Positions 60,077-62,812 of a stretch of DNA of 64,000 nucleotides are shown here, piece after piece; position 1 is the first letter of the stretch, and every line of letters starts with the position of its first letter. The stretch lies in NCBI RefSeq assembly GCF_024347535.1, contig NZ_AP025497.1:1488001-1552000 (forward strand), given 5' to 3'. Source of the DNA: Vibrio kanaloae (GTDB lineage Bacteria; Pseudomonadota; Gammaproteobacteria; Enterobacterales; Vibrionaceae). The position numbers and the translations under genes are program-made. Below the pieces are notes generated by a model. That model did not search any database and was not told the DNA's origin. It saw only the letters and a program-made list of their open reading frames with translations.

Positions 60077-60087
60077 ACATAACAAAG
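60077..60087 (+). repeat. attC43, left end before the IS
   Basis: ACATAACAAAG: R'' plus the first bases of the left arm. The site continues at 61,272. Confidence 0.9.
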
Positions 60088-60105
60088 AGACTATGGCGTC
60101 AATAG

Positions 60106-61062
60106 TTAATTTTTGGCGCTACCTTTATCCCACATTACGCCGTCTCTTATCATTGAATTAAGTATTACAACCATCTTTCTCATGCAGGCAACGATTGCGA
60201 CTTTTTTTGGTTTACCTGCCGCGAGTAATCGTTCATAAGTAGCCTTAAAAACGGGGTTACATTGGATGGCAGACATCATTGCCATATACATAACGGTTCT
60301 AACTTGAGGTCGACCTCCTTTTATCATCCGTTTGCCTTTAAAGCGTCCACTTTCTCTTGTTATAGGTGCTACGCCAATGAGAGAAGAAGCTTGCTTGTTA
60401 GTAATAAAACCGAGTTCGGGTACATTGCTAATTAAGGAGGCGGCTAGGACTTTTCCAACGCCTGGCATGCTTTGAAGAATGGTGCTCTTAGCTTGGTACT
60501 CAGGACTGCTCTCAATCAGTTTTGCTATCTTTGCCTCTACTTTTTCAAGCTGATTTTTTAGAGCGGTCAGAATCGGGGTAATGGTCGATGAGATATTTTT
60601 AGGTAATATTTGTAGTCGGTTTCTTTCCATGGTTTGCATGGTGAGTAGTTGGTTCCGCCTCGTGACTAAGTCACTCATAAGGCGTATGTTTTCACTTTTT
60701 AGCTTAGTCAGTTCGGGTTGAACTCTTTCGGCATAATGTGCGATGAGCGCGGCATCTAAGCGGTCATTCTTAGCACGTTGCCCAATAGCCTCAGCAAACC
60801 TTTTAATACGTAGTGGGTTGGCAACAACATAAGGTAATTTGGCTTTGTCACATGCGAGTATGAACGGCATTTCTAATCGACCTGTAGCTTCAATTACGAC
60901 GCGTTGAGGTTTGTGTTTCTTAATGGTTTTGATGGCATCGCTGATGCCTTTATCGGTATTTGGTACGGTGAAATAAATGTCGAGTGGACGGATATAGATG
61001 TCTAATTGTGACTTACCAGTATCAACGCCAACATTAATGTTTTGAAGTGTGTTTGTATTCAT
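60106..61062 (-). CDS. IS110-family recombinase (DEDD transposase)
   Basis: 318 aa. N-terminal RuvC-like domain with acidic residues in NVGVDTGKSQLD (Asp near 13), VVIEATG (Glu near 60) and KNDRLDAALIAHYA (Asp pair near 98 and 101). Coiled-coil 150-190, then the Tnp C-terminal domain SMPGVGKVLAASLIS...SSLIGVAPITRESGRFKGKR with the catalytic Ser in RESG. Such enzymes recombine DNA guided by a bridge RNA from their own non-coding end. Confidence 0.9.
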   Translation of the reverse strand: MNTNTLQNINVGVDTGKSQLDIYIRPLDIYFTVPNTDKGISDAIKTIKKHKPQRVVIEATGRLEMPFILACDKAKLPYVVANPLRIKRFAEAIGQRAKNDRLDAALIAHYAERVQPELTKLKSENIRLMSDLVTRRNQLLTMQTMERNRLQILPKNISSTITPILTALKNQLEKVEAKIAKLIESSPEYQAKSTILQSMPGVGKVLAASLISNVPELGFITNKQASSLIGVAPITRESGRFKGKRMIKGGRPQVRTVMYMAMMSAIQCNPVFKATYERLLAAGKPKKVAIVACMRKMVVILNSMIRDGVMWDKGSAKN

Positions 61063-61095
61063 AATAAGCTAACTCTTGCTTGCAAATGCGGGCTC

Positions 61096-61238
61096 GAGAC
61101 CCAGAAGACTATTCGAGTGTGGTGCTTGGAGTTCTATCTGACGTTCGTACTTGTTATCGGTCTCTCAATAGAGGAGCCGTCGTTTAATCGAACTATCAGA
61201 TAGAAGAACTTTAGTTGCAGCTAAAGTCTGGGTCTCAC
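61096..61238 (-). ncRNA. Candidate bridge RNA of the IS110-group element
   Basis: Folded by eye, minus strand. Outer stem GAGACCCAGA/TCTGGGTCTC; 5' hairpin ACTTTAG/CTAAAGT; then a stem 61,132-61,141/61,196-61,205 enclosing GTTCG/CGAAC, an internal loop and hairpin 61,159-61,178. Loop arms are TTAAACG (opposite 61,181-61,187) and ATAACAA (opposite 61,151-61,157), equal to the two target halves. A further segment, AGACTAT at 61,106-61,112, equals the IS end at 60,088-60,094 and would be a donor guide. Confidence 0.7.
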
Positions 61239-61271
61239 CTTACCCGATTGGAGTGCTTATTATCCATACAA

Positions 61272-61388
61272 AGCGTTTAAGAGGGATTTGGCACGCGTGG
61301 CACTTTCAGTTTGCGTTGAGTTTGGTGTTTAAGGTGCTTTGCAGAACTTATGTATTGCGTGCCTGCACCCCTTAACGCGGCGTTATGT
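61272..61388 (+). repeat. attC43, right part after the IS (class K)
   Basis: AG core, CGTTTAAGAGGGATTTGGCACGCG and R' GTTATGT. Together with 60,077-60,085 it is a complete site. Confidence 0.9.
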
Positions 61389-61901: not shown

Positions 61902-62296
61902 TGCAAAGGGCAGAAAAACGTTTATGGTCTAAAAGCCTTGTTCTGCGTTCTAGCTATTCACCTGTTATTTCCCAAAGACTTTTCATCGAAATAGGCATCT
62001 CGCGTAGCCAGTTTTTCGGTTAATTGGCTTTCGTGTTATTCATTTCTTCCGTGTTAGTAAGGTTCATTTCTCAATATTCTTGCACGCTGCTTCTTTGGTT
62101 TTGAACGTTAAGCGGGAACATTGAAAGATGGTATTTGTGGCCGTCGGCATCTACGAAAGTCTTCTTAGCCAAGTGCGTTTTGTTGGTTGGGTTTAAATTC
62201 TGAGCTGCCCGTTTTACTTTTGCGTTTAAAACCATTAGTTTCATAGCTAATTCAGCACCTTGGCGCTAAACCTTTGGCTTCATCGCGGTGGCAAAC
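61896..62296 (+). repeat. Family A cassette, copy 11 (cassette 45)
   Basis: Full length. Clean minus-strand frame of 57 codons, ATG 62244 to stop 62071, containing KVKRAAQNLNPTNKTHLAKK and HKYHLSMFPLN. Confidence 0.85.
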
Positions 62297-62418: not shown

Positions 62419-62812
62419 TGCAAAGGGCAGAAAAGCATTTATGGTCTAAAAGCTTTGTTCTGCGTTCTAGCTATTCACCTGTTATTTCCCAAAGACTTTT
62501 CATCGAAATAGGTATCTCGCGTAGCCCGTTTTTCGGTTAATTGGCTGTCGTGTTATTCAATCCTTTCGTGTTAGTAAGGTTCATTTCTCAATGTTCTTGC
62601 GCGCTGCTTCTTTGGTTTTGAAAGTTAAGTGTGAGCATTGAACATTGCATTTGTGGCTGTCGGCATCTATGAAAGTCTTCTTAGCCAAGTGCGTTTTGTT
62701 AGTTGGGTTTAAATTCTGATCTGCCCGTTTTACTTTTGCGTTCAAAGCCATTAGTTTTATAGCTAATTCAGCACCTTGGCGCTAAGACTTTGGCTTCATC
62801 GTGGTGGCAAAC
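62413..62812 (+). repeat. Family A cassette, copy 12 (cassette 46)
   Basis: Full length, in tandem with copy 11 but with the GTGTGAGCATTGAACATTGC middle variant, so the pair did not arise by a very recent duplication. Confidence 0.85.

Follow-up and report, generated by a model that had tools for sequence, protein, structure and literature searches.

A putatively RNA-guided IS110-type insertion sequence in an integron attC site of Vibrio kanaloae

The element and its insertion site

Near the end of the window, i.e. the whole stretch of 64,000 nucleotides of Vibrio kanaloae DNA that was analysed, an insertion sequence lies inside the attC site of an integron cassette. The following features define the locus, with the basis of each annotation in parentheses:

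60079..60086, plus strand: R'' end of attC (ATAACAAA), left of the element (the same cassette has an intact attC in L156)
60087..61271, minus strand: IS110-type insertion sequence, 1185 bp (boundaries from 66 copies; own-genome copies 0-1 base apart)
60087..60105, minus strand: right end (RE), ...TTGACGCCATAGTCTC, carrying the left donor ATAGTCT (copy comparison)
60097..60102, minus strand: TTGACG, -35-like half of a predicted circle-junction promoter (sequence)
60106..61062, minus strand: transposase, 318 aa, PF01548 and PF02371 (domain matches, homology)
61063..61271, minus strand: left end and noncoding leader, 209 bp (copy comparison)
61259..61264, minus strand: GATAAT, -10-like half of the predicted circle-junction promoter (sequence)
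61272..61388, plus strand: remainder of the split attC, from L'' to R', followed by the next cassette (intact attC in L156)

The transposase frame of 318 aa is intact and combines a DEDD RuvC-like domain (PF01548) with PF02371 and its conserved serine. D14, E58, D100, D103 and S238 are residues that we take to be candidates for the catalytic site. Two solved homologues, IS621 (E 8e-32) and ISCro4, were found by sequence, and the protein passes the NCBIfam model 'IS110 family RNA-guided transposase'; one database lists a 94% relative under the name ISCps7. At E <= 1e-90 the transposase is present in 52 of 227 genomes of the same genus, the window's own counted, and 16 of the 28 plasmid records with a match belong to Vibrio.

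Read in the direction of the transposase, the copies follow the order left target, TTGTATGG...CCATAGTCTC, TTGTTA. Noncoding sequence flanking the transposase gene amounts to 209 bp upstream versus 19 bp downstream, and a pattern search located 5-bp subterminal repeats (CCATA/TATGG) in 57/66 copies, altered or unseen in the other 9. The right junction reads TTGTTA in 59/62 copies, in 55/58 when only the 62 same-genus copies of the 66 are considered, and in 9/10 right ends from stretches fetched later. The bases before the breakpoint are variable (CT, GT, GC, TA, CC), so that the CT core of the original prediction fits the copy in the window and not the set. Since TTGT is common to target and element while the bases preceding it vary, the crossover probably falls within this block shared by target and donor, although the exact position of strand exchange is a prediction. 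The copy in the window carries an extra T (A on the plus strand; 60079-60089) at its right junction, compared with the direct TTGTTA of 59/62 copies, which may reflect slippage or a different crossover register. Odd right targets were also seen in L068, L091 and L177; the last of these, from Enterovibrio, has a guide (TTCATGGC) matching its left flank at 7/8 positions, a right flank reading TTGCATGG and a right guide that is still TAACAA.

Insertion into attC, as originally noted, is borne out by an empty site: in L156, from another genome, an intact and closely similar attC (ATAACAAAGCGTTTAAG...) follows the same cassette. Close relatives of the interrupted attC are likewise intact in other genomes. 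Across copies, a first test for attC arms based on local alignment did not separate flanks from controls (5/65 above the 95% level of the controls), probably because the controls often lay in the same cassette arrays. A stricter R' arm pattern took its place and matched 36/65 left flanks, compared with 5% in shuffles. Among the flanks without a strict R' arm, several look attC-like by eye and others are possibly truncated attC or other sites, so insertion is not always demonstrably into attC on the strict pattern. In L078, an attC arm is not visible, yet the flank TTGAACGCG fits the guide TTGAACGC, as would be expected of a guided insertion at a site other than attC.

The genome of the window holds three full-length copies in different attC sites, spread over both of its contigs, as well as fragment(s) of the element. 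The full copies show 0 or 1 difference over 1185 bases and the element has therefore probably moved recently. All three are located at TTAAACGCT; in the window, 13 of 46 left-arm sites start with TTAAACG, which gives such an agreement a chance of about 2 in 100. The left-arm pattern occurs at 46 sites within the window, and the genome as a whole has 42 TTAAAC-type plus 37 TTAAAT-type matches (counts that include chance sites); these numbers agree with the suggestion of dozens of targets per genome as a potential, of which only three full copies and the fragments are realised. Short C-terminal fragments were considered as non-autonomous elements and rejected, as those in G077 (3 stretches) are contig ends; among the 11 fragment stretches fetched, three have a left end and seven a right end only.

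The leader RNA and its guides

The leader is predicted to encode a bridge RNA with three guide segments:

61086..61245, minus strand: predicted bridge RNA, conserved core, 160 nt (alignment, fold, covariance model)
61106..61112, minus strand: left donor guide (ATAGTCT) (co-varies with the right end of the element in 61/62 copies)
61150..61158, minus strand: right target guide (GATAACAAG), complementary to the attC core side (TAACAA in 66/66)
61179..61188, minus strand: left target guide (ATTAAACGAC), same sense as the left target TTAAACGCT (co-variation tests)

Rfam yielded no match within the window. The leader of L063, which is identical to that of the window, has a minimum free energy of -55.3 kcal/mol, which corresponds to a z score of -4.78 relative to 200 shuffled sequences. 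An alignment of the leader cores (44 distinct sequences, 160 columns, mean column identity 90%; L049 left out) supports a consensus fold of 40 pairs, 12 of which show compensatory changes on both sides. In this fold, 98.2% of the paired cells are compatible with pairing, versus 93.7% after shuffling and 22.6-44.4% when the partners are slid. Of 295 genomes sampled from the order, a covariance model of the RNA finds matches in 31, which represent 10 of 99 genera. The predicted architecture comprises a closing stem, a side hairpin, a target-loop stem and an apical hairpin. One internal loop carries the left guide (columns 58-67) on one side and the right guide (columns 88-96) on the other, and the donor guide (columns 134-140) is situated in an unpaired strand of a multiloop. 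Such a position of the donor guide is described for many IS1111 elements in the accessible text of PMC11208160, where left and right guides and core are also defined, and the RNA of the present element thus mixes features. Expression of the leader RNA and its binding to the transposase are predicted.

The original prediction had placed CGTTTAA (61181-61187) and TTGTTAT (61151-61157) on the two sides of an internal loop, and these coordinates are correct; its identification of AGACTAT (61106-61112) with the right end of the element is confirmed as well. The proposed fold with an internal loop is upheld by the folding energy and the 40 consensus pairs, but the structure is larger than the stem-loop then suggested, and its conservation in homologous leaders, on which the proposal had been made to depend, is evident from the 44 sequences and the 12 pairs with compensatory changes.

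TAACAA is constant in the right guide of all 66 copies. As right guide and right target are both nearly fixed, this half alone cannot prove guiding. Five types of donor guide (TAGTCT, TAGTCG, TACTCG, TAGCCC, CAGTCA) are found and match the end of the element in 61/62 copies. Mismatched types of donor guide and right end were observed in L056, L122 and L125, which may be hybrids, as if two elements had recombined. A search for a right donor guide gave no convincing candidate by eye, and the search pattern caught only three copies. The last base of the right guide is linked to the last base of the element in 61/62 copies, a link that may reflect ancestry only.

When excised as a circle, the element would have its right end joined to its left, thereby creating a promoter, TTGACG-17-GATAAT, which would drive leader and transposase. 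A sigma-70-like arrangement of this kind results from joining the ends in 50/61 copies. The promoter score of the circle junction reaches at least 10 of 12 in 52/61 copies, the maximum of integrated left junctions is 9.5, and 2/1200 single-base shuffles of the integrated junction (rather than of the circle junction) reach a score of 10. For RNA and transposase, strong transcription is therefore predicted from the circle and weak transcription from the integrated element, with promoter activity deduced from the junction sequence. A promoter of such a kind at the circle junction is described for ISEc21 in the portion of PMC11187229 consulted.

Co-variation of left guide and left target

The variable left half of the target allows for a test of guiding. 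The base set comprises 66 copies, 62 of them from the same genus, of which 65 enter the left-guide tests (L058 is without a left flank). For each copy, matches between left guide and left target were summed over 8 positions, and the total was compared with 20000 permutations. Repeated stretches of one copy and L100 in its entirety (both split hits) were excluded before the counts, as were nine copies with an unrecognisable left end (L035, L046, L047, L048, L054, L061, L096, L098, L101). The base set scores 404/520 versus 365.7 +/- 6.4 in permutations, and 29 further copies, which except for L128 come from other genera, score 168/232 versus 133.3 +/- 5.3, with 0/20000 permutations reaching the observed value in either case. 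The same holds for all 94 copies together (572/752 versus 482.7 +/- 8.8; 0/20000). When only the 34 copies with non-standard left guides are considered, the score of 192/272 (versus 148.3 +/- 6.3) lies above all 20000 permutations. The copies are related and permutations overstate their independence somewhat; this effect is lessened by drawing one copy per distinct guide (n=31), which over 300 draws gives a mean of 172/248 with a mean z of 6.2 and a lowest z of 4.4. Finally, a hold-out of 13 copies, scored by the same rule, reaches 82/104 versus 57.5 +/- 4.6 (0/20000). For this hold-out, the search for left ends was 30 bases wider than the earlier one, and 12 duplicate rows as well as 9 entries without a usable left end or with spurious pattern matches were removed.

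Per copy (n=94), the match is at least 6/8 in 66 copies and at most 4/8 in ten (L049, L050, L089, L092, L094, L102, L117, L132, L133, L149). Strong single matches at 8/8 include L126 TATCCTTA, L148 TGAATGCC, L145 TAAATTGC and L184 ACATTGCT; the left guide of L184 differs from that of the window at 7 of 8 positions and its left target is likewise changed. Three copies of one genome (L060, L215, L216) have left flanks ending in TTGAAGCTT, all with the changed left guide TTGAAGCT. At the variable C/T base, guide equals target in 37/50 copies, versus 21.9 +/- 3.3 expected from the site pool of each host (16 of the 66 copies were not scorable). Left guides occur in 31 distinct versions that tend to follow the sites used, and the right half is near-constant on the attC core side. 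These data modify the original expectation that all copies lie at ATAACAAAGCGTTTAA, as only the TAACAA half is near-invariant and the left half of the target varies. The expectation that related copies sit at sites matching the loop arms is supported by the co-variation across copies, genera and hold-out, with the ten copies at 4/8 or fewer falling outside it. The central proposal, an IS110 element that is guided by RNA and programmed for the left attC arm, is sustained by the conserved fold and by the co-variation of left guide and target, hold-out included.

The best explanation is an IS110-type insertion sequence that is active, or was until recently, and is targeted by the RNA of its own leader. 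We consider this very probable, given the defined boundaries, the insertion into attC, the conserved fold, the co-variation of guides with target and with donor and the near-identical copies at three sites, from which RNA binding and transposition are deduced. The DEDD/Ser transposase would recombine two DNAs within the common TTGT, and the element would enter attC in one orientation, splitting R'' from L'', with attC function presumably lost while it is present. Alternatively, the transposase itself could recognise attC, by sequence or as a hairpin, with the loop segments being a by-product of shared ancestry or chance. attC sites are hairpins, which is compatible with such recognition, and the near-constant right target and right guide form a pair that cannot separate guiding from recognition by protein. 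Nevertheless, this explanation is very improbable: left guides that differ at up to 7/8 positions (L184) match likewise changed targets, also with one copy per guide and in the hold-out, the loop belongs to a covarying fold, and the donor guide tracks the end of the element as well.

In two species outside the genus (L123, L126), the guide TATCCTTA matches a hairpin-like target unlike the usual attC, reading GTTCAAC...CCTATCCYTA and then TTGTTGAAC (L123) or TTTGTTAG (L126). The site does not recur in the genomes of these two species. That it might belong to another type of attC, present as a repeated family, was not supported: 6 genomes gave a single exact match, which falls within a long frame resembling a membrane protein, and only 5 loose ones at 3 mismatches.

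Relation to known systems and implications

The founding papers on IS1111 elements in attC sites are reportedly those of Tetu and Holmes 2008 and Post and Hall 2009. The IS1111 elements ISKpn4, ISPst6, ISPa25 and ISPa21 share with the present element a DEDD transposase and insertion into integron attC sites (PMC11187229, PMC11616780; for ISPa21, PMC11616780), and for ISKpn4, ISPst6 and, by prediction, ISPa25 the consulted sections describe a noncoding RNA matching both strands of one attC end, as here. Same target kind and same transposase superfamily could suggest membership in this known group. We regard it as very unlikely, as the RNA region lies upstream of the transposase gene and not downstream, the subterminal repeats (CCATA/TATGG) are 5 bp long instead of the 7-17 bp of IS1111 elements, and the left, bottom-strand guide is located 5' of the right, top-strand guide, as in ISEc21 and IS621 and in reverse of the order in ISKpn4, whose RNA is downstream of its transposase gene. 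A few IS1111 elements with an upstream region are mentioned in the available text of PMC11187229. The experimentally RNA-guided IS110-type elements IS621 and ISEc21 resemble the present one in their upstream RNA and left-target guide preceding the right-target guide, and the transposase of IS621 is homologous (PMC11208160, PMC11187229, as far as covered). Differences remain: ISEc21 targets an IS3-family gene instead of attC; and where IS621 shows a CT core and an internal loop for the donor, the present element has a shared TTGT block and a donor guide in a multiloop strand. Subterminal repeats are short in both, but those of the IS110 type are given as 2-3 bp in the relevant part of PMC11208160, placing the 5 bp found here between the IS110 and IS1111 groups. 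By these comparisons the element agrees with the settled features of the IS110 type and departs from three that define IS1111, a distinction of layout and not of transposase comparison.

An IS110-type element directed at attC was not encountered in the literature searched, consisting of listings and the beginnings of abstracts, with subscription papers and ISfinder outside this scope, nor was one noted in the parts of PMC1382264, PMC11551772, PMC11023631 and PMC4572688 that were covered. The portion consulted of a Shewanella survey (PMC9229058) reports no insertion sequence interrupting attC sites. In the literature covered, attC-aimed guide RNAs belong to IS1111-type elements, in contrast to the IS110-type layout found here, and an earlier description may exist. 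RNA-guided insertion into attC is thus indicated for IS110-type elements besides the known IS1111 elements. Three named elements, ISMex17, ISKpn42 and ISEc32 (38-39% identity), are among the matches listed (60 of 3466 plasmid records); in ISMex17 (CAGTCG) and ISKpn42 (ACAGTTG), a segment upstream of the transposase gene recurs downstream of it, as judged by eye.

That the element is cassette-borne or a dead remnant, moved by the integrase as part of a cassette and not by its own transposase, would accord with three full-length copies in attC sites of the arrays of one genome but is scarcely credible, as it lies inside attC with a known empty site, its 318-aa frame is intact, near-identical copies adjoin different cassettes and some copies (L078) have no visible attC arm, yet a matching guide.

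For the RNA-guided IS110-type element, circle excision would restore attC exactly, and insertion could therefore be a reversible cassette lock. It is tentatively hypothesized that a whole IS110 lineage, spread over several genera, has specialised in parasitising integrons by means of a split guide, in which the half facing R'' is frozen and the other half drifts along with the local L'' box, and with insertion as such a lock; this proposal seems plausible to us, if slightly on the doubtful side. If it is true, altering the R'' core side would as a rule cost the hosts their cassette exchange. With 31 distinct left guides and the sites that these have chosen, a natural test of base-pairing rules is available without engineering, and the contrast of a fixed with a changing half allows guide evolution to be tested directly. 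Such elements could also block or tag the cassettes of large chromosomal integrons, or fuse them.

A very large array is found on contig C1 of G060 (about 1.20-1.34 Mb), a genome with 65 TTAAAC-type and 138 TTAAAT-type matches that contains three copies, two of them intact and one broken (L100); its guide is of the TTAAAT type, and so are all three left flanks. Elsewhere in the window, two similar small frames on the minus strand (62071-62244 and 62581-62751; NAKVKRAxQNLNPTNKTHLAKKTF) are apparently paralogues.
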